From: Thelephora terrestris
Taxonomy: Eukaryota; Basidiomycota; Agaricomycetes; Thelephorales; Thelephoraceae
DNA: 64,000 nucleotides
Direction: 5' to 3'
Assembly: GCA_015956445.1 (NCBI GenBank)
Contig: WIUZ02000012.1
Span: 1,116,001 to 1,180,000, forward strand
The translations under genes and the position numbers were made by a program. Under the pieces are notes generated by a model. That model made no database searches and was not told where the DNA came from. It saw only the letters and a program-made list of their open reading frames with translations. Within the stretch, counting starts at the first letter, position 1. Every line of letters begins with the position of its first letter. Positions 1 to 16,831 of the stretch are shown here, piece by piece.

Positions 1-632
1 CAGGGTATTTATAGGTAAAGACAGTGCGATCTACGCGAAAGAGATGGGAAAAGTAGCGAACAAATGGAGAAACGGTGGGAGAATAAGAACAGGTAGATAG
101 AAGGGGATAAACGAGAGTCCGATGCAGGGTAGGGAGACAAACGGTTCATCGGGAGGCCGGAACGAGGCTGGGACAGGTCTTACCGAGAGGATGGAGCGAT
201 CGTGAGAAACAGGACCGAAAGGGGAAGTCTACGGGTTCGAGATCAAAAGATCGTAACCGGGCGGGAGAGCGGGAGCAGTCGAAGATGATTGGCGAGCGAG
301 AGGGAACGAGTCGACACGTGTATAGACTGAAGGGAACCGGACCGAGGGAGGGGACACGTCATCTCGGCGAGATAAGGGATCGGGAGACATCGGCCGATCG
401 CAACATCACGTGCCGTTCGGGGAGGACGGCCACGGAGGCAGAAACAGCGTGCGATGACGCGCGTCGAAGGGATCGCGGGAACGGTTCGATGATCGGGATG
501 TCAAGTGGGCGTGACCCTCCTGTGACCGATCGAGGGGTCGTCGGCTCGCGTAGTCAGTAGCTAGCGGGGTAGGGAGGTAGGGACTGGGGACTAGCACTAG
601 ATTCGAAGGTCGCGCGAATAGACAGCGGGTCA
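1..632 (-). repeat. Left LTR, cut by the window edge
   Basis: Matches 16200-16831 almost base for base; I see one clear difference, near 585 versus 16784. It ends in GGGTCA, the expected CA end. On the minus strand, the strand of pol, TATAAATA lies at the far left, consistent with a U3 promoter and a short R-U5. In pol orientation this is the 3' LTR. Confidence 0.9.
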
Positions 633-784
633 TCTCCTCGAGACTTTTAAAATTCAACCACCCTTGGTTGCGTGAGGTTGCCATGAGGCACACGTGAGGC
701 GTCCGAATCGGGAAGGCCGCGCGGAAGCAAAACGACGAGATCGCGGTTTCGCCAGCTCATCACTTCTCTTTTCTGGTCCTCATC

Positions 785-3450
785 ATGTCTTCCTCTTCTA
801 AATGGACTCCTCCTGCTGCTGCCAGCGACCCGATTATCCTGGCCGCTATGATACAGAGCGCCAAGGCGGTGAAGATCCCGGACGACGAGAAGCATCCCAA
901 TTGGGCTCGCCCCACGATCAAGGCCTTGGTGTCGGCTCAGGGACGTCCGGAAGCGTTCGAGCCCGTCTGGGCGACGGTCCTGCCGTTTTGGCGGCTCAAG
1001 GGGTTGGAGGAAAGGCTGGAGGGAGATAAGGAGTTGCGGGACCCTTGGGCGATGCATGCGTTGGCTTGGCTGGTGAGTCGAGTCGCGACGTTTCGATGTG
1101 GCGGGAGGGAGGGACTAAATCGTCGAGTTTGTAGGCTCGTCATCGGGACGTGTGCCGTAGTTTTGGGCTCCCGCCTCTGCAGTTGATCGTCGACTGGGCA
1201 GACGCGGCAGAGTCCATTGGTTGGTTAACTCCGGGCTCGACCCCTTTTGGCGAGGATGCAGAGGAGGCTCCCGCACCCGTGATTAGTCGTCAATCGACGC
1301 TTCGACCGGTCGGGAGTGCTGGGGGGGCTACTACGCCAGCTATGAGTCGTCAGCCGTCTATCCAGGCGGTCAGGGGCACGGTGGGCGATCTGCCGCCTCC
1401 CACCAGTCGCGAGCCCTCCATTCAGCCAACTCCACAGGTGTCCGAGCGAGACGAGGACTTTGAGATGGAGGATACGCCCAGAAGGAGCGCTGGGGGTGGT
1501 CGGAACACGACGGGGGGTAAAAGTGCGCTCATCCCATACGTTGCCGTCCCTCCTCGTCCCCAGGCTACCAGAAGGGATGTTTCGGCCACAGAGTCGAACG
1601 TCGGGTCGAAGCGGGATCTCCCCAGCTCGCCGAGTAAGGAGGAGTCCACCTCAAAACGTTCGCGGACGACGGGTACCACCGGGAAGGGGAAGGGCGTTCA
1701 ACGTGATCACGTCCCGGCCTTTTTAGCCATCGACCTCTCCGGCGAGACATATGAGGAGGAGGAGCAGCTGAATACGGTGAAGTTTCCGGGTGCGCGCAAA
1801 TACGTGAGTCTTTTAAACCTTTCGCGCTGTATCCGGGAGGTCTCATACTTCTTCCAGACATGTGATCGGTGCGACTCGTCCTCGTCGAAGGTGGTGAAGG
1901 ATGCGTGTCGTCCAACACTGGGGGCAGACCCCTACTTACCCAGCAGGCAAATTGAGGGTTTTTTGAGAGTTTTTCAACAATTTACTCAGGTTTTACCCAG
2001 TGGGTTAATTGTGAACAAATTCAAAACTTACCCACCACTTTGCCCACACTTTGATCAGTGGGTAAGTTTTGAAATTGTTCTCAACAAACTCATCAGTTTG
2101 CCCACGAGGTACTTCTTTGACAAAACTCTAAGAGTTCTTTCACAAATTGCACAAAATGCGTCCACCACATTATCTGAGCCACTCGACCAGAGTTCTTTCA
2201 CAAATTACCCAGAAATTTGCTCACAACATGTTCAATCATGTACCCAGTGGGATTGTTGAGAGTTTGTCAAGAAATTGAGCATATCAAGAGTTTGTTGTGA
2301 TTACATCAAAGAAAACCTTGTGGGTATGTTACTGAGTATGTTGTGAGCAAGTTTTGAAAGAACTCTTGATGAGTGGCTCAGAGCATGTGGTGGGCACATT
2401 TGGTGCGATTTGTGAAAGAACCCTTGGGGTTTGTCAAAGAAGTACTTCATGGGCAAACTGATGAGCTTGTTCAGAACAAATTCAAAACTTACCCACTGAT
2501 CAAAGTGTGGGCAAAGTGGTGGGTAAGTTTTGAATTTTTTCACAATTAACCCACTGGGTAAAATCTGAGTAAATTGTTGAAAAACTCTCAAAAAACCCTC
2601 AATTTGCCTGCCAGGTAAGTAGGGGTCTGCCCCCAGTGCAACCTGGTGCCTCGCGCTCAAGGAGGAGCGTCCGACCTTCATCTGCGCAGCCTGTAGGAAG
2701 GACAAGAAGGGTTGCTCCTTCAAATGGATGACTTTCGGGATCACTGGTTGGCCCACGGTTACTCGCACGCCCGCGGGAGATCGTCGTTGCAGGAAGGAGG
2801 CCGCGGACCGTCGCAAGACGGAGGTTCCTACGAACGAGCTTGCCGACGACGGTGGGAAAGTCCCGAAACCGAAGAGAGCCCCTCGCGTGAGGAAGGCTGC
2901 GACCTCTGCGGCTTCTGAGCCCTCCCCCTCCGTTTCTACCCGCTCCAAGACTAAGGCTGCCACAGCAAGTTCGAATGTTGCGCTTCCCACAGTCGCGATG
3001 GCTGGTCTGTCTGTCGGGGGTCCCTCTTCAGGACTTCACAGCTGGGAGGTCGATCTCCGTGAGTTCGAGCAGGAGTGGGGCCCGTCGACGGATTCCCCGG
3101 TTGCTGTGGAGCAACTTCGCGCGGCTCTTCGTTCCCAGCTTGCCAAGGAGCGCAACGAGGTGGACGAGATTGCTGATCTCGTCGCGAGTCGTCGGTACAT
3201 TGCGAAGAGGATCCTGGCTAGGATGAACGAGGAGATCAATCGCCGTGGTGGGGAGGAGATCTGGGACTCCTCTGACTTTGCGTGTTCGGGAGAGGAAGGG
3301 GGCGACGGTGATGTGTCTGTGGGGGCTGTGAGTGACGACGAGGTGTTTTCGGATGGTGGGGCTGCGGTGAGGGATGTGGGAGAGGAGCTTCGGGATGTTG
3401 ACGATGTTGAGGACTCGGGTATGGTTGCGGAGGGGTCGCGAAGGGTCTGA
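785..3450 (+). CDS. Accessory ORF A of the retroelement, antisense to pol
   Basis: Unrecognised protein encoded opposite to gag-pol. The first exon runs from 785 to about 1072, followed by a GTGAGT...TTTGTAG intron, and coding resumes near 1135. A second GT-AG intron is likely around 1804-1859. The frame is Ser/Pro/Arg-rich, has a Cys-rich stretch, and has a helical segment near 3050-3240 that may coil. The C-terminus is acidic. A CACTG-terminated element (1916-2638) sits inside it. It has no RT, capsid or other signature I know; similar orphan ORFs occur in agaricomycete repeats. The role is unknown. Confidence 0.55.
1916..2638. mobile_element. CACTG-terminated MITE-like element, copy 1 (723 bp)
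   Basis: The ends are CACTGGGGGCAGACCCC and its inverse. The long terminal inverted repeats cover most of the element. Flanks are CAA at 1913-1915 and at 2639-2641, a 3-bp target duplication. CACTR termini plus a 3-bp duplication are the marks of the CACTA/CMC superfamily, to which fungal Plavaka-like elements have been assigned. It has no transposase, so it would be non-autonomous. The long frames through it on both strands are by-products of the palindrome. Confidence 0.85.
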
Positions 3451-3974
3451 GGAATGGGGAGGAGGTTGCGCGAACTTTTTAGCCATCATCATCATGTACT
3501 ACTAGTTTCTTGGCCTGTTTCTTTGCTGAATTCTCGTGTTTTCTTGGTCCGTAGCGTGTGGAGTGTGGTGAGACTCGTGGAATCGAGTTGGGTAAGGCGT
3601 GAGACGAGTTCTGCAAGGTGGGTACCTCCTCTGCGTCCTTCCAGCGGGTATGAACGATGATCGGGATGCGAGCGCGATATTGGGGACTGGCTCTCCTCGA
3701 GACTTTTGAATACTGACCGTCCTCGGTCACAACAACGACGGGGTGAAATGCTGAAACGCCTGGAAATGGCGGGACGGTTGGCCAGCATTGAATCGGGAGC
3801 CCACCCGGCTCAGAGGCACGATAACACGGGCCGGACGGGATGATCGGGACGGTGCCGGCATCTTCCGAATCACGTGGGACACCGTACGGTCCGCGAGGAC
3901 GGGGGAAAACGTCAGGGAGGGGGATCGAGTGAAAAATAATAATTTTGAAGTCCACCACCACCAGCACGACCGCA
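3451..3974. other. Spacer between accessory ORFs with a copy of the LTR-adjacent motif
   Basis: No gene recognised. Positions 3692-3708 repeat the sequence that directly follows the left LTR at 633-649 (CTCCTCGAGACTTTT core), each followed by similar sequence. On the pol strand this reads as a short purine-rich tract ending in CGAGGAGA. Confidence 0.4.
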
Positions 3975-5286
3975 ATGCCTCTCATCGGGAATCACTATCT
4001 CACCGACGGCGACAATCCTGTGTGGATAAACAACCTTGAAGCTCGCGATCCCCCCACTGATCGTCCAGGGGTCGGCTTTCTCAACATCACTCTTGCAGAT
4101 ATCGTGGAACGCGTTCAGAGCGAGCGTGGGGATCGCGATGCCTTGGAAAGGGCCACGAGCTCAGATTCCCTCTTCGGATTCGCTATCAGGGCTATTGAGG
4201 ACGATCGAGGTCGCCCAGGGCGTCTGGGGGAGGACAGGGTTTGGAGGCGCCTCCTAGAGATGGGTCTCGCTGCTGATGGGATGTCGGGAGACGTTCGTGA
4301 AAGCATCGCGACACGACAAGCCGTTCGTTATACCGCTGTAATCGCGAACGAGCTCATGAGGCGTCAGGAGGGACTCGAAAACAGGGTATGTCGCTGGGAG
4401 TGGTCGCGTCCGAGCATAGTGCTAACTCTTGAATGGTAGATTGAGGAAGTCCGTCTTCGCAATGAATGGTTGAGGATCCGCGTGGGAATGATGGACCAGG
4501 CTATGGACGAAATGGATCGGCACTACACCGCAGAGAGCGAGGCTGGGAGTCACTATGTGAGTCCCCGCTGTCCCGCGCAGGGTCGTGACGCTGACTGGAG
4601 CACAGGTCAGGGGTCTGAACGGCAGGATCACGTGGCTGGAGCAATCGCTCGCGGACTTCGTCGAGGCGTCTCTCATGCGTCGGGAGTACTATGGGGAAGT
4701 TTGGGTCCGTCGCGAGGAAGTCACCGCTACCGCGGAGGAGCCGGTAGCCGTTGGTGGGGTGGAAGATCCGCCTGTGGTTACGGAGTTCCACGCTCAGGCG
4801 ACGGACGAGGACTTGGATATTGTTCTTGCGCACGGGGAGGATCGCGAGGAGGCTCCGGTGCCGCTCGAGCGCGCCGAAACCGCTGATACCACGGGGGGGT
4901 GTTGACCATGTGAGTTCATCAACTTTGTCGCGACGTCCACTGGTTGACCTGGGGAATCGTAGGTACCAACGCCAGGTGCGACGGTCGTCGGGGCTAACAC
5001 CATCCCGCAAGAGGGTCCACCGCCTTCCTATACACGCCACCGAAACTACAGGCGACTCTCTCCTGCGGAATCAGACGTGGCCGCTCGTGTACGCATGCTG
5101 CAGCACGCTGTCGCCTACATGCTCCGTGCTCGTGAGATGTTCGCGAGATCCACGGGCAGATATGCGGGATATGAAGATGACCTTGACCCCACGGAGGACG
5201 CCATGATGAACGTGGTTGGGGAGACCTCGCGACGCATTCGGGCTGAGTTTGGAGAGGGTCGCGACCGCAGAGGTGACGGGGCATAG
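3975..5286 (+). CDS. Accessory ORF B of the retroelement, antisense to pol
   Basis: Second unrecognised plus-strand gene. It looks like four exons, with GT-AG introns near 4387-4440, 4557-4608 and 4905-4961. The predicted protein is mostly helical, rich in Arg/Glu, with an acidic low-complexity middle and a helical C-terminus. It ends 219 bp before the end of integrase, tail to tail. No family recognised. The same broad layout (helical N-terminus, acidic part) is seen in the gene of the 2.4-kb insertion at 12919-14185, but I see no clear sequence match between them. Confidence 0.5.
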
Positions 5287-5504
5287 CCCAAGGTAAGAGT
5301 GAACTAGCTGGTCATTGATGCGCAACTGCAAAGACAAAGGGGTTGTAAAGATGATGAAAGAAGAATAGCGGGCGAAGGAAACGTGGGTGTCTAGAAGGTA
5401 GATCGAAAGTGAGACAGCATTAGAATCTTAGAAGGGGGCGGAAAAAGTGAATAGAGAGGTGCATAGCTATAGTCCGGAATAAATACGAGACAGGTTGGTC
5501 TGTC

Positions 5505-6616
5505 CTAGAACGAAGGGGAGGGAACCTCGCGATAAGATCCAACAGCGGGGTCCAAGGAATCGAAGAAGTGGACATCTTCAGGGTCCTCGCTGGTGGAGTC
5601 CTCGTCGTCGGGAAGAGTCGCGAAGCTTGGGTCGCGAGTCTCTGTACGAGCAAGGTAGGGAATCAGACGAAACCCGGCTACCCTGAGCTGAGACTGGGCG
5701 CCGTCGAGTTCAGCGACGATGTAAGAGGGGCCAGCCTTCTTGCGAATGACGACATAGGGGCCATTGTACCGGGGCTTGGTCTTGCGGTTCAGGGACTCTT
5801 CGATGCGGGAATTCCGAACGAGGACCAGAGATCCGGGCTTGAAATCGAAGTCTACAATCTGTGAACCATGGCGCTTCTCAAACCGTTCTAGGTTCTTGAT
5901 GCGGGAAGCGGTAACTGTCTCCTGCATCTTTTCGATATCTTCCTCACGCTTCGCCAGCTGACGAGCCCGGATCGCGATGAGTTCCTCGGTAGAGATGCCA
6001 AAGTCTTGGGCAGGGACGAGGTAAGTGGCTTCGAGAATGTCAAAGGGGAGGATGGGGTGGACACCGTGGACCATGTAGTAAGGGGAGAACCCAGTCGCCT
6101 TCCGCACAGTGACACGCTCGGCCCAGAAGACCTGCGGGAGAACCTCGCGCCACTTGGACTCGTTTCCATGACAGGTTTTCATGACAGCTTCACGGACATC
6201 AAAGTGCTTCGACTCGACAATCCCATTGGCTCGGGAGTTGTAGCCAGAGATGCGGATGTGTCGTATACCGTATCGCGATGCGAGGATGTCGAGGGCTGCG
6301 ATATAGGAGGAACTGTTGTCGGTGACAATCTCGGCGATGCCACCCCAACGACACAGGAGGTCCTGGAAGATGAAGTCGGCGATGACCTTGGCAGACTCGG
6401 AGGTAGTTGCCCGAGCTTCGGGATAAGATGTAAGCGCATCGCGAGCGTGGATGACGTATCGGTAGCTTCCAGTCCTGGGCATAAGAAAGGTATCGATATG
6501 GGCTTTCCAAAACAAGCCGGGAACGGTCGGGACGGTTGGCGGGATGTAGAAATATTCGGTTTGGCGCAGCTGACACTCGTGGCATGTCTTGACGTACCAT
6601 CGGACGTTCTCACTGA
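5505..6616 (-). CDS. Integrase part of Ty3/gypsy pol
   Basis: The minus-strand frame has the H2C2-type zinc-binding segment (CHECQLRQ) followed by a DDE-type core and a C-terminal chromo-like or GPY/F segment (YNGPYVVIRKK), as in Ty3/gypsy integrases. It inserts the cDNA copy into the genome. It is separated from the RT/RNase H part by CACTG copy 2. This is a fossil part of the element described above. Confidence 0.85.
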
Positions 6617-7143
6617 CACTGGGGGCAAGGGCCCAAATACCCACCAGGTACATTGTGATTACATTGTGGTTACAGTCAACAAGTGATCCCAATGTGCCCG
6701 GTGGGTAAAAATCAGGTACATTCAAAATGTGCCCAAAAATGTGAATTTAATATTACCGCTGGGCAAATACTGATCGCATTTACAATGTACCCAGTCATGT
6801 GACCATAATGCACCAAAACGCATGTCCTAGGCATATTTTGAATACATTTGATTCACATTGTAAAATCGACGACATTCAAAATGTGTTCACAATGTACCCC
6901 ACCAATTCCTCCACATGTTGAATACATTGTGAATGTGATCGTCGATCACATTCGAAAAACTTTTTAGGGCAAGTTTTGAATGTGATCTACATGTTTGGTG
7001 ATGGCAAAATTTGATTCACATGATGGAGTACATTCAAAATGTGTTCACAATGTACCCACTGGGCACATTGGAGTCACTTTTTGACTGTGACCACAATGTA
7101 ATCACAATGTGCCCAGTGGGTATTTGGGCCCTTGCCCCCAGTG
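6617..7143. mobile_element. CACTG-terminated MITE-like element, copy 2 (527 bp)
   Basis: Ends are CACTGGGGGCAAGGGCCC and its inverse. Flanks are TGA at 6614-6616 and TGA at 7144-7146. The interior is AT-rich with many CACATT and CAATGT repeats. It is nearly the same as copy 3 (10688-11107) but in the opposite orientation, and holds roughly 110 bp more internally. No ORF of its own. Confidence 0.9.
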
Positions 7144-10072
7144 TGAGGCAGGGCCACCAGAAACGCAGAAGGAGGTTGGCTGTCGTCGCGAAGGCTCCCT
7201 TGTGGCCGAGGTTGTCGTGGGCAAACCGAATGAGGCGGAGGCGATCTGAAGGAGGAGGAACGAGCTGTGGGCTACCCTTGCGATTCTTCCGGAACAGCTT
7301 GTTGCCAACGAGGAAGTAGTCTGTGGCTTGGCGGATGAACTGCCGGTAGTTGTGGTCAGAGAGGTCTGGAGGGCGCTCCAAGTCGGACAGGAACTTCTGT
7401 ATCACGACCAGCCGTTCTTCACGACGGAGGCCTTTGGGGGACTGGGGGATCGCGACATCAGTCTCAGAATCCGGTGAGGAGGATCGCGACGGAGCGGCAG
7501 AGTCATCGGGAGGTTCTGGAGAGGGTCGAGGGGAAGGAGAGGAGGCATGCAGAGCTGGTTCGGGTTCAATGGCGAATAATATAGAAGGTGCTGGGTCTAG
7601 GGGGGATCGAGGTGTGTTGACTTCAAGGAAGAATCCTGCGCCGAGGTCTATCCACTCTTCTAGTTCGTCCGGATCGTCGGGAGGCGGATCCTCAGGGGCG
7701 CGAGGACGACGGGAGAGACCGTCAGCTCCGGTGTGCTTGTCAGCGGGGACGTGGACGAGTTCGAAGTCAAAGAGCAGGATGGCGGATATCCATCGGTTCA
7801 CGGCATCGTTGGGATGGAGCGTAGGGTTATTGAGCATCCCCTTGATAAACTTGGCATCCATTTCCACAGTGAGTTTCTTCACGCCGATGGTGTAAATCTG
7901 CGTCTGCTTGAGTGCGCGAAACAGCCCGAAGAGCTCGAGCTTGGCCTGGGAGTATCGCGACTCGCGATCGTTGAACGTGATGGACCCGAATCGACTGGGG
8001 TAGCGCTTTCCGTCTTCACCGACCTGAAGGAGAATGAAACCAACACCGTTCATGCAGGAGTCGACGGCTAGGATGACTGGGCGTTGCGACTCGTAGTCGA
8101 TAGGGCGTAGAGCTGGTGAGTTTACGATCGCGGCCTTGAGGTTCTCGATAGCTGCCAACTGCGGGGGTCCGATTTCGAAGGGTTCGTCTTTCCGTGTTAG
8201 CTGGATGAGGGGCCTTGCGACGAGAGTGTAGTTCTTGATGAAGATTTGAAGGACTCCACAGGTTCCCAGAAAAGCTCGAACCTCTGAAACATTTGTCGGG
8301 ACTGGCCAGTCCTGGATGGCCTGGATTCGCGAAGGATCCGCGATACGACCTTCGTAAGTACAGATGTGTCCAAGGATGTCGGCCTGAGGTACTCCGATGA
8401 AGGCCTTCTTCCTGCTAAACGTAGCCCCGTAGGACTTGACGCGCTGGATGATCCGGTGGACTGCTTGGAAGTGCTCCCAGACGAATCGTCGTATGCCTGG
8501 GTTTTCGGGGATAGTCTCATACGTTCCGTCGGGAAGCTCGTATCGCGACTTTGGGCCTTTGATGGGGACGTCGTCGGCGAAAGGCTGGGTCCAGTGTGGA
8601 ATCTCAGGTCGAAGGATGTGGGATACGTCGCCCTGTAACACGGCTGGGGAGTTCGTCCAACCCATCGGTAGAACTGTGAGTCGGAACGCGCCGAGGGGAG
8701 TGTTGAACGTGGTCATGTCGCGAGAGTCGGGATGAAGCTGACGCTGGTCGAAGGAAACGTATAGGTCGAGCGTGGTGTAGATGGAGCGACCAGCGAAGTC
8801 TTCGGCAACCACATCGGTGTAGGGAGGCATAGCGGCATTCTTGATCGTAACGGCGTTGAGAGGCTCCAAGGAATGAACCAGACGTAATGACTTCCCATCC
8901 TTCTTGTAGACACAGAACCATCTACTGTTGTAGGAGGAGGACGAGGGTTCGTAGACACCGGACTGCCACTTGTTCTCGATGATCTGAGTAACCTCAGAGA
9001 GGATCCCGCGAGGGATGGGGCCTTGTCTGAGTACCCAGGGCGTGTGCGCGATGTGCGGGATCTCGATGGGGGCGAAGTACTTGGGATCAAATGTCCCTCT
9101 CTCGTCGTCAGTCCATGCGAATGCCGTGTGATGGGTGCTAACGATCCACTCCGCGAGCTTCACTTCTTCTGGTAGCAGAAGTCCTTTGCCAAGCGCCATT
9201 TGCTTCTGGCGTTCGGGAGTGAAGCGGGGGACGGGGGCGTATTCGGGAGGGTGCGTAGGCAAGGGGGGCATGTCGGCAAGGGGGTCGGGATGGTCGTGCC
9301 GAATGATCCGAAAGTTCTCTGGCAGGGTGGTGGCGACGGGTCGAGTCTTGTTCGCTACTTTCTTGTACAGGAACATGGATCCACCGAAGGTTTCGCTAGC
9401 GAGCGGGATCTGGGAGTAGAGCTCCGATAACCACATGCTGGCTGCTCGTGCGGGAGTAAGAGGGTCGAGAGGGGGAGATGGTAACTCTTCGCGAAGGGCT
9501 GCAAACTCTGTCGAAAGGTCGCGACGGGCGGGAGCGTTACCCATCGCGAGGAAGAGATGTTCTAGGCGTTCTGACGAAGTTCCTGCCACTTCGAGAGGTG
9601 GGTAACCGTCCTGGGTGCCTGCGTTGTTTTGGGGCGGTCCTTCCGTCACACTCGATCTGAGAGCTCTGTCGACCTCTAATGCCAGGTGGCGGGTGAGAGC
9701 TGGTGTCGATGAGGTGGTCGCGACGTCGGGAGGATCGGGGATATCGAGAGTGGAGCGATCCGGTGGGGTCTCAGGATGGCCATCTATAGAATCGTATCCT
9801 ATGAAGAAAAAGGAGAAAGGGGTGGGGGCAGCATAGTAGGATGATATGGGGAAGGGAGCAGAGGAGAGAAAAGGAGAAAGGACGGAGGAAATCGAGACAA
9901 GAGGAGGTGGGAGAGGAGACATAGGTGAAACTGACGCAAGTTCTGGTAGAGGGGACTGGGACAGGGAGGTATCATAGGGTATCCGATGTTTTGCGGCCTG
10001 CAGCTTGGCGTGCACTGCAGACACTGGGAGTCGGTTGGGTCGGGACGCGGGAGTAGGTTCAGACGGCTCCAC
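7144..10072 (-). CDS. Reverse transcriptase/RNase H part of Ty3/gypsy pol
   Basis: Long minus-strand frame. A Pro/Ser-rich N-terminal part is followed by an RT core (including a VYKKDGKSLRLVHSLEPLN fingers block and the LGHICTYEGRI and VRAFLGTCG blocks typical of gypsy RT), then RNase H (ILAVDSCMNGVGFIL) and a linker towards integrase. It copies element RNA into DNA and removes the RNA strand. Protease lies just upstream. Confidence 0.9.
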
Positions 10073-10140
10073 GAAGATGTGGGGCTCTTTGCGCGAGAGC
10101 GGGGGAGGTTGGGGCTCTGTCGCGACCGTAGTGCCGTCTG

Positions 10141-10687
10141 CTAATGAAAATTTACTGCTTCCTCGGGATTTGGTCGAGGAGACTTGCGGATTCGGGGCTG
10201 CGTCGCGAACACGTAGAGCTTTCCCGTTTTCGGATCTTTGACGCGGATCTCGTGCTTCCCTCCTGCGCTGCTGACTTCGGAGCAGCTGATGACATCGAAG
10301 AAAGGTCGTCCTAAAAGAACCTCGAAAGGCGCTTCTTCGACGACCTGGATCTGGAGATAGATAGTGATGGGACCGAGCTGAACTGGGTGGTCTTCAATAA
10401 GGCCTAGCGTCATGGTGGTGCTTGCATTTGCCGACTCCATTGGCATAGCGCGACTCGCGACGATGGGTGCTTGCAATCGGGACCAGACATCCTTTCTCAT
10501 CACCACGACCTGAGCACCTCCGTCGAGAATGCACTCGGGTTCGACACCCGGCCCAAACGTCGGGTGGATGACGCGAAGGGGAAGGGAGGAGGCTGCTGCG
10601 GAGGATGAGGAGTCGTACTTCACGAGGTCCAAGAAGACTGAGGGGGGTTCTGCATCGAAACATCCAGCTAGGTAAGCATCCACTTCA
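10141..10687 (-). CDS. Retroelement aspartic protease region
   Basis: Minus-strand frame with the retropepsin-like fold signature: a CILDGGAQVVVM stretch and a later VLLGRPFFD stretch, matching the two conserved blocks of gypsy-type proteases. It would process Gag-Pol. CACTG copy 3 lies immediately upstream, so only the part below 10688 belongs to the element. Confidence 0.75.
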
Positions 10688-11107
10688 CACTGGGGGCAAG
10701 GGCCCGAATACCCACTGGGCACATTGTGATTACATTGTGGTCACAGTCAAAAAGTGACTCCAATGTGCCCAGTGGGTACATTGTGAACACATTTTGAATG
10801 TACTCCATCATGTGAATCAAATTTTGCCATCACCAAACATGTAGATCACATTCAAAACTTGCCCTAAAAAGTTTTTCGAATGCGATCGACAATCACATTC
10901 ACAATGTATTCAACATGTGGAGGAATTGGTGGGGTACATTGTAAATGCGATCAGTATTTGCCCAGCGGTAATATTAAATTCACATTTTTGGGCACATTTT
11001 GAATGTACCTGATTTTTACCCACTGGGCACATTGGGATCACTTGTTGACTGTAACCACAATGTAATCACAATGTACCTGGTGGGTATTTGGGCCCTTGCC
11101 CCCAGTG
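10688..11107. mobile_element. CACTG-terminated MITE-like element, copy 3 (420 bp)
   Basis: CACTGGGGGCAAGGGCCC end and its inverse; TCA at 10685-10687 and at 11108-11110. The sequence is the reverse complement of copy 2 with an internal block missing. With two copies this similar, insertion was recent on the scale of the host retroelement. Confidence 0.9.
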
Positions 11108-12447
11108 TCATCGACTTCTACCGTGTTGGCCGAGATCTTCTTGCTGGTGACAATCTCCCTGATGTGTTTTCGAAGGTCGGGAGCGACGGCCAGAAGTTCG
11201 CGAGCGCTGAGGTTGACCTTGGAGTCGAGCACACGATGGACTATGTCGCTTGTCTTCACGTTGTGTTCGACTGGGGCCTGGAAGCGATACTTGGAGTCGT
11301 CTGGAGGTGGTCTAGGTGGATAGGAGACTGGTCGCATCGGTCCTTGGGGGCGCTGTGTCTGGCGATCTCCCGCTCGAGCTCCAGGCTTTCCGGAGGTGTT
11401 GGCGGGGTTCGTCTGGGTCTGGGTAGGAGCAGGAGTGGGCTTGGACGGTCCCGACTCGCGACTGGCTGGGGTAGGGCCCGTAGGGGCAGGTGGTAATCGT
11501 CCATCCCTTCGGGGTGGGCCCGTCCTTCTCGCGATCTCGACACCGTCAAACCTGACTTTCTTGGGGCCAGTCTGCAGGGCGTAGATCTGGGCGTTGCGAA
11601 TGGAGTCGAGCTGGGCTTGCATCAGTTCGACTTGTTCTAGTGTCTCGTCGTCGTACTTGGAGAGGGGGTTAGGAGCGTAGCGGTTCTCGACGGGAGTGTG
11701 TGGTATGCTGGTAGTCGCGTAGTCCTCTTGGTCGGGATCGCATTCCTCCTCGAAGAGGTCGTACTGTTCGTCGGGATGGGCGTAATACTCTTCGGCAGGG
11801 GGGTCTATGTCTATGGTGAACACACACTCGTCTGGGCCTTCTAAGAAGTTGGTTGCAAAGGTGTCGCGACCTTGTCCTTCGTCGAGGCCCTCTGATGTCC
11901 AGTAGTTGTCGATACGTTCGCGAAGGTTCTTGCCAGGGATGTTGCGTGGAGGGTAGCGGCCATCGGGCAAGGATAGCTTCCCGTAGCCGTTCTTGATGAC
12001 TTTCCCTTGTACGAGGTAGTCCGCTGCGATGGGGCAGTCGCGAACGAAGTGGTCATGGGCGCTACAGAACACGCAGTTCTGGGTGTACTGCTCTGGGTTT
12101 AGGGTGTTCCACCGGGGGACGTTTTGAAATACTCCTCCCGGAGTAGTCTGGGAAGTAGCGGGACGAGGGAGGCGCGGTGGAGGGGCAGAAGGAGGGGGCC
12201 CACGGCGAGGCTGTACGTTTGCGGTGAAGACCCGAGTCAGGTTTGACATTGCCTGGATGAGCTCGCTGACGCTCCCCTGCTCTGCGGGCTCCGTCTTCGG
12301 GATGATGGCTCGAGAGTCGGGGTTGTCGTCGGGAGCGCGTGCGTTAAGGACGAACAACGCAGCCTCGTGGACATCAGAGAACTGGTAACCGTCGTCGGGA
12401 AGGACGTCAGGCTTCTTGATCGACAGTCGATGCAGGATTCGTGCGCG
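11108..12447 (-). CDS. Gag, C-terminal part with zinc knuckle
   Basis: The minus-strand frame contains a CCHC zinc knuckle (CVFCSAHDHFVRDC), the nucleic-acid-binding part of Gag, set in Pro/Arg-rich sequence, followed by a linker to the protease. The N-terminal Gag part lies at 14834-15679 beyond a 2.4-kb insertion. Fossil part. Confidence 0.8.
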
Positions 12448-12453
12448 GATAGG

Positions 12454-14827
12454 CTGTGATGATTTCGCCGTTTACCCCTTTCATTTCCTTTATTTAAACG
12501 ACTCATCACCACTAAGTCAGTTGGTGCCTTGCCCTAAACACGGCGGTAAACTGTTTATTATGCAGTATGCCCTATGCCTAACGACTCAAAGTCCAATACG
12601 TGGAACGTGCTACTAGTCAAGATACCCCAGAAGACCCGAGGTATAATACGTGAACATGTACCGGCGGACCTTCATACGAAGATCCCCCCTACCTGGCCCT
12701 CCGTTGCCCCTGGACGACTAGTAGATATTCAGGCTACCGACAACAAGGGATGTATTAATAAGTGACGCGCGCTGACCTCTCGCAGAAGTCAACCGGCTTA
12801 TTAATCTGACCCTTGGATTGGACTTATGAAAACCATTATGTTTTATGACTAATGGATCACACGCAATAGACAATATAGAAAGAAGATTAATTGGAAGCCG
12901 ATAGTACAAAAGAGTTATTTAATCAATATCTCTTCGGATCCTTTGTACTACTTCCAACGCCGATCTCACCAACTCCTCATTCACCCAGTTCTGTTCCCGG
13001 ATCTCGTTCGGGTCTACGTCCGACAGGTCGTCGTAATCTGGAAGCTCTGTGTCAGAGTTCGGTTCGCTATCAGGAACGAACTCGGCATACGGATCGTACT
13101 CCAGAGCAGGCCATTGACGGCGACTACCCCAAGGAGTAGATACGAACTCAGGACGAGGGGTGTCCCTACGAACAACTCCCAAGTTCTGGTAGAACTCGTC
13201 GCTCCCGATCTCGATAACCTCATCATCAACGGGAACCAACCTGTTCTCGTGTCGAACCAACAAACGAGCGGGCGGCGACTCAGCCCGATTGGGAATTATC
13301 GGCGACCCGGCCCGATACAGAACTTCCTCTCCTTCCTCTTCTTCAACTCGGACCTCCGGCTCGTTACATCTCCTCTGGAGATCCCGGACCTCTCCGGTCA
13401 ACTCGGAGACACGACGAGTAAGGCGAACCTAAAAAGGAATAGGGTTAGAAGATATCAAAAACCTTCAACCCCTACCCCTTACCTTATCGTCCTCCAATTC
13501 TCCGGTTTTGGTAACCAGAGCCCGAACCAAGTCCTTGAGAGTAGTCACCTCTCCCTAAAAGAAAGTTTGAGTTAGAAAGGTCAATTACTCCGGACCCAAA
13601 CTTTCTTACCTTCAACAAATCGATATCGGCCCCCTGCCGAACAACAGTATCTTCTTGTCCGTGGATAACCCCCTGCATATCTTCCTTCCAGTTCTCCAAG
13701 GCTTCGATCTCCTCCCGACGACCATCAATACGCTCGTTGACATGAGCCACTTCGTCCATTAACATGGACCCAACGTTCCCTGTATGGAGAACGCTGGCCT
13801 CCAACACGGAGTTGAAGGTCTCGTTGGACTCGGTCACAAACTCGACACCCCTATTGAGGAGTTCGGTCGCATACGGGTTAGTCTCGATGCGCGCCAACTT
13901 GCGCCGAGACACCCTACGAGCGGCCTGGAGGAAGTCCCTGAAACCTAAAAGGAGTTAGCTTGAATTCCTAAACCGGAATGTGCAAGCAGGGCCCCCACCT
14001 AAATCAGAGAATCCCTCATTGGGATCGGCGGTGGCGGTCCTATCCATAACCGCTCCTAAAGTAGGATAAGGGCGGGACGGATCACGGCGGGCATGGGAGA
14101 AGCGGTCGATGTTGAAGTTGTTCTCCTGAACAGGAGAGTAGGAGGAAGAACGACGAGTGGGATTGCGAGTGGAAGCACGAGGCATGATGAGTATGAGTGT
14201 GTAACAAAGGAAGGTTTGTTGGGAGACCAGTCATCCAACCCCCTTTGGTTATATACCAAATGCCACGCCCCTTCCACGACTCAGGAGTTGAGTCATCATT
14301 TCTATTGTTTACTGCGCATGACCCACATGACATCATATGCCCCTATCTTTAGTCATATGCTCCCCTTTTGCTATTGGCTGTTAGTCAGCCATACCCACAT
14401 TCCTTCCGAACATTCTCAGGATACGTCATGCTTTGTAATTGCTCTGTAATGCTCTCAAATTGCTATTGGCCGCCACACTTTCGTTTATCAGCTGATAATT
14501 TGTAGCATTAGTCACCACGTAACGCACAGACCATGCAGTGCTGCGCACGGACCATGTTTGTCTGTGTTTGTATCATTAGGGTAGTTACATGTCACTGTCA
14601 CGTCACAAATCTAAGTAGTATATATACTCAGAGTAGTTTAGCCTGTACTCCTTAGATTTGTTATCATCAGACTCTCCGTGACCTCTACTGCTGTGTGCTT
14701 AGAGCAAGAGTGTTTGAAGACCCTTGTCTCCTTCTTTCTCCCCCTCTCTAATCTAGTCTGTGAAGAGACTTCCGATATCCCTGGGTTTGCAACAGGGTTA
14801 TAAACTGTGTGTTTGACCCCTGAGTGT
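12454..14827. mobile_element. 2.4-kb element inserted in gag, flanked by GATAGG
   Basis: GATAGG occurs at 12448-12453 and again at 14828-14833, and gag sequence lies on both sides, so this block is an insertion with a probable 6-bp target duplication. It is AT-richer than its host and lacks the TCGCGA words. Ends are CTGTGATG and GAGTGT. I see no long terminal repeats, direct or inverted. It carries one intron-bearing gene on the minus strand and a TATATATA-containing 5' region near 14620. Class not settled. Confidence 0.7.
12919..14185 (-). CDS. Coiled-coil/acidic-tail gene inside the 2.4-kb insertion
   Basis: Four or more exons on the minus strand. Exon 1 starts at 14185 (MPRASTRNP); others lie near 13484-13950 and 12919-13425, with introns bounded by GT and TTTTAG-like acceptors. 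The protein has a basic N-terminus, a long coiled coil (heptads in the 13500-13900 part and around 13360-13420), and an acidic Asp/Glu/Pro-rich C-terminus. No catalytic motif. It resembles in layout the Gag-like or DNA-binding proteins of non-autonomous elements, but this is only inference. Confidence 0.5.
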
Positions 14828-14833
14828 GATAGG

Positions 14834-15679
14834 TTTGGATAGCAAGAGTGCTATTGAACTGTAGAGGTCGCGTCGGCCTGACATAGGCTGGGGGAATCCC
14901 CTGAGATAGGCGGCGTCACGCTCCCGAGCGGTGTAGCGTCCCTTCGCAATGAGGTACGCGGAATAGGTAAGGAAGGACCGGTGGTAGTCGCCGAGGTCTT
15001 CGCGACTCATGTCCCGGTACCCGCGAGTGCGTTCCAGGAGGGTATCCAGATCTCGAGTGGTCCAGCGGCGATCCGCTTGGAGGTGGGAATAAAGATGTCT
15101 AACTTCGATCTTAAACTGGGCCCAAGTGGCGGGAGTGTGAGCGAGGACGTCCGGGTGCAAGCAGGGAACGTGCTCCCAGGATTCAGCTGCGCGACCGGCG
15201 TAACGCTGAGCCCAGTCAATCATCTGTGCGTCGTCTAGACCTGCGCGCTTGGCTACCTCCTCGAGCTCGTCAAAGAAGGTCTTGAAGCCTTGCTCAGTAT
15301 CGGAGGCGAACCGAGGAGCCTCGCGACTGTGCGTCAGGGGCATGTTGGCCGTCATTGCTGGATAAGATACGGGTGGGTGGGTGGGAAAAGTTGGTGTCGT
15401 GATCGGGAGGGCCTGCGCGAGTCGCGACGGGGAGTCTGGGGGAGTGGGCGATCGCGACGGCGGAACGGTGCCCGGCAAGTCGGTGGGTGAAGATAGTGGG
15501 GTGCGGAAGAAGGTCTCGTCTTGTTCGGGATGTGGGAGAGGGTTGTTCGATGAGGATGCGATCTGCCGGGCTACGATGGCGGAAACGACGTTGTCGAGTA
15601 GAGAGAGAGTCTGGCGAGTGTCGAGAATAGCCTGTCGGGCTTCCCGAACGTCTTGGTTAATCTCGGCTGGGGCTTGCAA
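14834..15679 (-). CDS. Gag, N-terminal part
   Basis: Minus-strand frame starting MQAPAEINQD, with a Pro/Ser-rich linker and then a helical retrotransposon Gag domain (WAQRYAGRAAESWEHV, WAQFKIEVRHLY, LGDYHRSFLTYSAYL), as in Ty3/gypsy capsids. It would form the particle shell. It stops at the 2.4-kb insertion. Confidence 0.75.
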
Positions 15680-16155
15680 AGCCAGGAGCCGAGCGCGAGA
15701 TCGCGTCTGAGGGGGGGAGAAATCTAGCGGGATAACCTTTTGCGTACGACCTCGTCCGCGGGGTGGAATGGCTGATAGCTTCTAGCCAGAAGTGACCTCC
15801 GAACCGGTCTCGGCGTGGGTTCCAAAATGAACTGCTACTATCCGGGTGGAGTCGGGACACGACCAGAATAGCAGAAGTGGGGGTGAGGGGTCACCGGTTG
15901 TGCAGAGGTCGGGAAGGGGAGAGAAGCTAGACAGAGGAGAGGGAACCACGGTAGGTCGCGACGTTGTCGGGACGAGAAGGGAGAACTCCGTACTAGCAAA
16001 CTCCTGCTAGACGATGACGATGGGCTAAGGGGCTAGTGGGCGATGGGCTAGTAGGCTAGGGGTCTATTGGAACTATGGGGCTAGTGGAATCGATGTCAGA
16101 GCGAGGAGCTGGAGGTTTTCGATGATCAGGTCGTCCAAGCAGAAGGGAGAAGAGG
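15680..16155 (-). other. Leader region between right LTR and gag
   Basis: No gene. On the pol strand this would be the 5' untranslated leader. I could not find a convincing primer-binding site (a TGG-starting stretch next to the LTR). The plus strand has a purine-rich run at 16141-16155 directly against the proposed LTR edge. Confidence 0.4.
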
Positions 16156-16831
16156 TGTGAAGAGGCCCAGGGGTTTCTTGGTCGTTCAACTAGCTAGTAC
16201 AGGGTATTTATAGGTAAAGACAGTGCGATCTACGCGAAAGAGATGGGAAAAGTAGCGAACAAATGGAGAAACGGTGGGAGAATAAGAACAGGTAGATAGA
16301 AGGGGATAAACGAGAGTCCGATGCAGGGTAGGGAGACAAACGGTTCATCGGGAGGCCGGAACGAGGCTGGGACAGGTCTTACCGAGAGGATGGAGCGATC
16401 GTGAGAAACAGGACCGAAAGGGGAAGTCTACGGGTTCGAGATCAAAAGATCGTAACCGGGCGGGAGAGCGGGAGCAGTCGAAGATGATTGGCGAGCGAGA
16501 GGGAACGAGTCGACACGTGTATAGACTGAAGGGAACCGGACCGAGGGAGGGGACACGTCATCTCGGCGAGATAAGGGATCGGGAGACATCGGCCGATCGC
16601 AACATCACGTGCCGTTCGGGGAGGACGGCCACGGAGGCAGAAACAGCGTGCGATGACGCGCGTCGAAGGGATCGCGGGAACGGTTCGATGATCGGGATGT
16701 CAAGTGGGCGTGACCCTCCTGTGACCGATCGAGGGGTCGTCGGCTCGCGTAGTCAGTAGCTAGCGGGGTAGGGAGGTAGGGACTAGGGACTAGCACTAGA
16801 TTCGAAGGTCGCGCGAATAGACAGCGGGTCA
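16156..16831 (-). repeat. Right LTR (about 676 bp)
   Basis: Outer end at 16831 is fixed by the last base shared with the left copy (GGGTCA). The inner edge is proposed at 16156 because the sequence begins TGTGAAGAGG there, giving TG...CA termini. It cannot be checked against the left copy, which is cut by the window. TATAAATA on the pol strand near 16205-16212 fits a promoter. In pol orientation this is the 5' LTR. Confidence 0.8.

Follow-up and report, generated by a model that had tools for sequence, protein, structure and literature searches.

Organization of the antisense block

The 64,000-nucleotide stretch of the Thelephora terrestris genome considered here (contig WIUZ02000012.1, positions 1,116,001 to 1,180,000, or C4:1116001-1180000; the whole stretch is called the window) begins with a long terminal repeat (LTR) retrotransposon that fills positions 1-16831 and has its gag-pol on the minus strand. 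Between the integrase stop at 5505 and the inner end of the 3' LTR at 632, the element carries two genes on the plus strand, antisense to gag-pol. Gene 1 has three exons and encodes 606-609 amino acids; gene 2 has four exons and encodes 384 amino acids. The first-pass annotation of this DNA had proposed two such GT-AG genes from the letters of the window, and other copies of the element, in which the frames read through, confirm them. The features of the block in the window copy are:

785..1072, plus strand: gene 1 exon 1
1073..1134, plus strand: gene 1 intron 1, GT-AG, 62 nt
1135..1803, plus strand: gene 1 exon 2
1804..1857, plus strand: gene 1 intron 2, GT-AG, 54 nt
1858..3450, plus strand: gene 1 exon 3, which codes for a six-cysteine motif and is interrupted in this copy
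1916..2638, no strand: nested inverted-repeat insert of 723 bp in gene 1 exon 3, with a 3-bp target-site duplication (TSD), CAA; the site is empty in other copies
3975..4385, plus strand: gene 2 exon 1
4440..4556, plus strand: gene 2 exon 2
4606..4909, plus strand: gene 2 exon 3, with one base more than intact copies have, which breaks the frame
4963..5286, plus strand: gene 2 exon 4 and stop

Both genes are broken in the window copy, gene 1 by the 723-bp insert and gene 2 because its exon 3 carries one extra base. The uninterrupted copy on contig C14 (L010) has gene 1 exons of 288, 669 and 867 nt and gene 2 exons of 411, 117, 303 and 324 nt. Neither spliced protein has a Pfam family at E values up to 10, which agrees with the initial impression that the proteins belong to no recognised family, and viral_contigs holds no relatives of the gene 1 exon 3 alignment or of gene 2 exon 1.

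Copies of the family and their independence

The genome searched comprises 40.6 Mb in 60 contigs, and the best candidates alone were scored, so that all copy and match counts given here are lower bounds. A copy of the family is defined by a reverse transcriptase (RT) at least 90% identical (102 of 120 candidates scored), with neighbouring pieces on one contig grouped as one. At least 16 places have the family pol, and 12 of the 16, among the matches listed, carry sequence of both genes. Besides the window, these copies sort into type A (C14, C7, C5 and C1), type B (C16a from exon 2 onward, C16b and C23) and type C (C13, C4b, C2 and C25). The gene 1 frame is intact in eight of the 12 (L010 and L012-L018), as is the gene 2 frame (L010-L016 and L018), and seven copies have both frames intact together. 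An older relative at C21 has a gene 2 of about 86% identity and a further version of gene 1; among the matches listed in the genome search, gene 2 is not found outside the main family and C21.

Where flanks were compared, the copies are independent insertions. The left flanks of ten of the 12 copies and of a further pol place on C59 share no common site and give only a few repeat matches of at most 338 bases; this comparison leaves aside C2 and C25 and covers C4b by 133 bases alone. Allelic duplicates inflating the copy count are rejected on the same ground, since these ten flanks differ apart from the few repeat matches. A 4-bp TSD is present in six of the seven copies read at both ends, the ends of the C1 copy being mismatched, and the LTR pairs of seven copies have 0-9 mismatches in 973-1004 positions. 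The element family is recently active. The duplications in L010, L011, L012, L014, L015 and the window (ccgt, ccga, ccgg, gcgg, acgg and ccgt) all have the form NCGN, which suggests a preference for targets centred on CG.

Selection on the encoded proteins

Purifying selection acts on both of these intron-bearing antisense genes. Between types, the ratio of nonsynonymous to synonymous substitution rates (dN/dS) is 0.23-0.36 for gene 1 and 0.16-0.26 for gene 2. In the two pairs compared, exon indels between types are 6, 9 and 9 nt and 6, 6, 6, 9, 3 and 9 nt, all multiples of three; those outside exons are 1 and 29 nt and 5, 2, 2, 1 and 28 nt. When four copies of each gene are considered, the coding frame has no internal stops, the other five frames have 3-25, and third codon positions are the most changed. 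All five introns are 49-62 nt long and have GT-AG ends in every aligned row (nine rows for gene 1, eleven for gene 2). These ends are retained in intron 2 of gene 1 even though it is just 36.5-38.5% identical between types A and C.

Gene 1 as an exchanged cassette

Gene 1 is exchanged between copies as a cassette, as is shown by its divergence and by one recombination joint. Relative to the window, the leader of types A, B and C is 94-99% identical (94-97% in type C), gene 2 is 92-99% identical, and the pol and gag pieces are mostly 95-100% identical, with two pieces of C13 at 91-92%. Gene 1 exon 2, by the same comparison, is 63-64% identical in type C and 80-83% in type B, and the spacer between the two genes is 70-74% identical in both. 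The contrast is sharpest between L010 (type A) and L015 (type C), both recent copies with 1 and 0 LTR mismatches, respectively, in which the synonymous divergence (dS) is 1.02 for gene 1, 0.14 for gene 2 and 0.013 for a 308-codon piece of pol. The joint is found in C16a, where exon 1 and intron 1 are of type A and the sequence after them is of type B. Among ten LTRs, most of the divergence between types falls in the part that adjoins the block, and linkage may be its cause.

No 50-codon window of gene 1 with a defined dN/dS exceeds 1 in the pairs L010-L014, L010-L015 and L014-L015. Between L010 and L015 the highest value, 0.68, is at codons 301-350, which adjoin and overlap the cysteine motif. 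Since the spacer is diverged as much as the exons, exchange of old variants explains more of the pattern than positive selection does.

Duplicated polypurine-tract borders

Gene 1 sits between two copies of a polypurine-tract motif, each with a dyad following it on the plus strand:

633..670, no strand: site 1, the motif adjoining the 3' LTR, with the dyad CAACCA-N4-TGGTTG
3690..3732, no strand: site 2, the second copy of the motif, with the dyad TGACCG-N4-CGGTCA

The tract at site 1 reads AAAAGTCTCGAGGAGA in the sense direction and is followed by the TG of the LTR, a position that makes it the putative working polypurine tract; the second copy is upstream of gene 2. At site 2 of L016 the outermost pair of the dyad is not complementary. 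The pattern of tract and dyad, which requires purine/pyrimidine partners in the dyad without forcing A-T or G-C pairs, has 47 exact matches genome-wide and none for the reversed control, and all 47 are complementary in the dyad. Sorted by sequence, 24 belong to the main family (13 at site 1 and 11 at site 2), 15 to a sister family (nine and six) and eight to a third group; a further site 2, in C23, is off by one base and stands outside the 47. The tract differs between families in step at both sites, being CTCGAGACTTTT in type A of the main family and CTCGGGACTTGA in the sister family.

The eight sites of the third group are identical single sites, two of which are tied by distance to RT matches of 82-83%. 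In these two places (C15:536482 and C2:660762) the single motif is 4,161 bases past the RT match. By estimate, this leaves 2 kb between pol and the tract, in which another gene could fit.

Sister family and relatives of gene 1

The sister family (L038, with an RT 85% identical) has a homologue of gene 1 between its two tract sites. Its pol frame ends about 240 bases past site 2, which leaves no room for gene 2. Among the matches listed, six of the seven full-length RT matches at 85% have a sister-family gene 1 homologue within about 3 kb; for the seventh, on C45, the distance is about 12 kb. At C12:2812836-2818988 and C24:623-6346, the scores of sister-family gene 1 equal those of another copy, and the pol pieces are about 36-78% identical, several with stops; decay of gene 1 and of pol is mismatched in these pieces.

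Gene 1 also has paralogues elsewhere in the genome, which qualifies the picture drawn from the window. A protein search finds clusters of gene 1-like sequences at C1:2.635M, C23:1.628M, C16:0.103M and C8:0.758M. The C1 cluster (L039, C1:2634900-2642800, 7.9 kb), the sole one that was read, contains several gene 1-like genes in both orientations. Among the matches listed, no pol is near the C1, C23 and C8 clusters, and the C16 cluster has one at a distance of about 6 kb. The cluster is also a repeat in its own right, being near identical over 7.9 kb between C1 and C23 and extending over 5.1 kb at C16 and 4.1 kb, at 96% identity, at C8; it is possibly a separate mobile or duplicated unit. Because the cluster is a near-identical repeat, the label of host gene for these relatives stays a candidate one. 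A gene 1-like cluster also lies at the start of contig C8.

On sequence, gene 1 belongs to a larger intron-bearing family. The element gene shares the codon and phase of intron 1 (55-62 nt) with the sister family and with three cluster genes. The sister family also has a counterpart of intron 2, and inspection by eye gives a GT-AG candidate before the cysteine motif in three cluster genes. The six cysteines are invariant in all six aligned sequences, and a third cluster motif, outside this alignment, also has all six and ends in C-T-F rather than C-S-F. The motif, C-x2-C ... C-x-P-x-W ... C-x2-C-x6-C-[ST]-F, makes the gene 1 product a putative zinc-binding protein. By segment, the sister-family gene is 32-54% identical to the cluster genes, mostly 43-54%, and 32-41% identical to gene 1 of the main family. 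Below threshold, Pfam matches one piece of a cluster to DUF5651 (E 0.12).

Proposed function and alternative explanations

The block is best explained, with a probability of about 0.62, as a functional accessory module consisting of two antisense protein genes that are spliced by the host and maintained by selection, with gene 1 exchanged as a cassette and with products that are likely nuclear regulators. Transcription of the two genes would run from the antisense strand, the host would splice the transcripts, and selection would act on the proteins. The introns of the two genes would be splice signals in the antisense transcript alone and would thus persist each time the sense genomic RNA is copied; the same idea had been put forward in the first-pass annotation, and it fits the presence of all five introns in every aligned copy. 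Gene 1 would be exchanged when synthesis switches templates, or a strand is displaced, at the repeated tract, and this would leave near-identical elements with very different versions of gene 1. The proteins are most likely regulators of the element that act in the nucleus, and the guess of a DNA-binding regulatory function draws on the cysteine motif and on the parallel with the plant proteins Grande gene23 and TRP28.

Several observations weigh against this explanation. Gene 1 is broken in four of the 12 copies (by inserts in the window, C7 and C23, and by a stop at codon 545 of 610 in C16b), and gene 2 is broken in four as well (by one extra base in the window and C2, and by interruptions in C16b and C23). 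Within types there are few changes, and dN/dS scatters from about 0.2 to about 1.3 (up to 1.15-1.28). The expectation that the block always travels with its pol holds for the 12 of 16 places noted above and fails for four. At C59 (L023, 4483-4737) most of the block is absent through an internal deletion from about codon 12 of gene 1 to exon 4 of gene 2, with a joint at a short shared sequence that leaves the start of gene 1 beside gene 2 exon 4. The other three places have a scrap of the block or none of it: C23:2.06M retains 87 bases of gene 1, and C56:1.53M and C2:449-466k have no block match among the matches listed. These four places are read as products of deletion or truncation. No Pfam match backs zinc or DNA binding for either protein, and single-sequence AlphaFold models of single exons are uninformative, with a predicted local distance difference test (pLDDT) score of 43 and 54. 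The eight single sites of the third group have no gene 1 match listed nearby, so the motif is not specific to gene 1. Finally, the RNA fold of the dyad is no better than that of shuffled sequences at three of four sites, and an RNA hairpin at the tract is accordingly a weak candidate.

A fuller account of how the cassette arose can be offered only tentatively. In it, an intron-bearing gene was captured antisense as the polypurine tract was duplicated, and the duplicated tract then served as the cassette border; second-strand synthesis would start from both tracts, a co-packaged relative could readily supply the segment between them, and the versions of gene 1 would be swappable specificity types on a common gag-pol. 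If this were true, the element would be a modular retroelement, analogous to phages with swapped repressor cassettes, and the gene 1 types might differ in the LTRs or silencing factors that they recognise. Cluster genes and gene 1 have intron positions in common, but the cluster is itself repeated, and transfer may have run in either direction. The reverse transfer, in which domesticated or dispersed element genes gave rise to the clusters, gains from this repetition, as the cluster may be mobile. It is rather unlikely, since element genes share only 32-41% with each other and the sister gene shares mostly 43-54% with the clusters, values that, compared by segment, do not make element genes look like one source of the others.

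A doubtful explanation, of about the same standing as reverse transfer, is that gene 1 is a captured gene that counters host silencing, its diversity reflecting an arms race and not direct control of transcription of the element. VANDAL DNA transposons, which code for anti-silencing proteins, provide a parallel. The great diversity of gene 1 in otherwise near-identical recent copies is in keeping with such a race, as is the position of the highest dN/dS window by the cysteine motif, yet in the three pairs the ratio stays at or below 1 in every window where it is defined, and the spacer, diverged like the exons, argues for exchange of old variants and not for positive selection alone. It is improbable that the antisense strand acts as RNA, through double-stranded RNA, silencing or self-limitation, with the frames secondary. 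Antisense transcripts have been proposed to act as RNA in PMC7264820, but the protein constraint on the block is clear from the low dN/dS between types, the indels in threes and the retained splice sites, and an RNA role as the sole function is largely refuted by this codon evidence. The probability that the frames opened by chance in a G-rich strand, or that a single copy picked up a passenger gene, is negligible. Few stops (3-6) occur in the -1 frame of the exons as well, as chance frames would allow; both ideas are nevertheless rejected on the intact frames, the dN/dS values and the indels in threes, and 12 copies carry both genes with conserved introns.

Other features of the element

The element is a Ty3/gypsy-type LTR retrotransposon, as judged from its domain order, LTR pair and TSD. 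The Pfam order RVT_1, RT_RNaseH, Integrase_H2C2 and rve corresponds to RT, RNase H and then integrase, with LTRs on both sides; in the window copy the LTR pair has one mismatch in 1004 positions and the TSD is 4 bp (ccgt). The remaining features are:

1..632, minus strand: inner part of the 3' LTR, a copy of 15828-16831, the remaining 371-372 bases lying to the left of the window
5505..10072, minus strand: pol, with RT, RNase H and integrase by Pfam, the integrase stop at 5505 and a nested insert at 6617-7143
10141..15679, minus strand: protease and gag region, named by position, with a Pfam match to DUF4100 and inserts at 10688-11107 and ~12457-14882
15809..15824, minus strand: probable primer-binding site, sense TGGAACCCACGCCGAG, 3 nt from the 5' LTR, named from its position and TGG start alone
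15828..16831, minus strand: 5' LTR, 1004 bp, TG..CA

Neither protease nor gag is matched by Pfam in 10141..15679, where DUF4100 is the only match, and no tRNA is matched by the probable primer-binding site. The family length is about 13.1 kb, the C14 copy measuring 13,086 bases from LTR to LTR by its coordinates, and the window copy is lengthened by four nested inserts absent from other copies. The first impression of a giant element is thus owed mostly to nesting.

Three of the inserts (1916-2638, 6617-7143 and 10688-11107) have inverted repeats and TSDs of CAA, TGA and TCA, respectively. They are non-autonomous, with ends CACTGGGGGCA that are presumably CACTA-like, and related copies are present in many of the loci examined. 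The fourth, at ~12457-14882, is an element of 2.4 kb. Its empty site shows an overlap of 8 bases, and it has several consecutive reading frames on the minus strand; parts of it also occur in L009, L019, L024, L026, L034 and L037.

Comparison with known systems

Extra genes near the 3' end of a retroelement are found in several other systems. The v-src gene of Rous sarcoma virus is flanked by direct repeats, lies in the sense orientation and has no introns. Thelephora gene 1 resembles it in being placed near the 3' end and bordered by repeats of the element, but it is antisense and retains its introns. HBZ of human T-cell leukaemia virus type 1 (HTLV-1) is a spliced antisense gene at the 3' end, a likeness drawn without sequence comparison, and differs in that the Thelephora block is separate from gag-pol.

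The closest parallel in fungi is brtn, an antisense gene of Boty that was reportedly described by Zhao and co-workers in 2011. In PMC7264820, brtn of Boty (Botrytis cinerea) is listed as an additional open reading frame (aORF) between pol and the 3' LTR. Boty too is an LTR retrotransposon of a fungus that carries an extra antisense gene; compared by description alone, it has one gene reported, whereas the Thelephora family has two genes, five introns, a variable cassette and a duplicated tract. The suggestion that such a block is unusual in fungi must be narrowed: an antisense gene was already published, and what is new, as far as searched, includes the two-gene, intron-bearing block.

The plant antisense aORFs, which include Grande gene23, RIRE2, Retand ORF4 (TRP28, PF04195) and PvRetro13, are likewise antisense accessory genes. 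According to PMC7264820, gene23 of Grande is driven by a promoter of its own and its product is nuclear, and TRP28 is predicted to bind DNA (PMC7264820 and PMC11963269). PF04195 is not matched by either Thelephora protein at E values up to 10. Retand differs in that the term 'intron' is not found in the main text of PMC11963269, in contrast to the five introns of the Thelephora family. Genes similar to aORFs are lacking outside transposable elements, and the origin and function of aORFs are given as unknown, in PMC7264820; Thelephora gene 1 differs in having relatives that are mostly away from detected pol. As in the aORF-3R class, which is antisense between pol and the 3' LTR, present in most copies and conserved, the Thelephora block lies in this position, occurs in 12 of 16 places among the matches listed and has a dN/dS of 0.16-0.36.

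Since the class of antisense accessory genes is known, from several plant families and from one in fungi (brtn), what the Thelephora family adds is an unusual modular design. As far as searched, with most subscription papers outside the search, the combination of two intron-bearing antisense genes, a cassette that is exchanged and has a duplicated tract at its borders, and relatives outside the element is new. Five antisense introns are retained in an element that retrotransposes, and a cassette between duplicated tracts is testable. The family also provides three handles on the origin and function of aORFs, namely relatives of gene 1 off the element with matching introns, a sister family that has gene 1 and lacks gene 2, and recent insertions whose pol is near-identical and whose gene 1 cassettes differ strongly.

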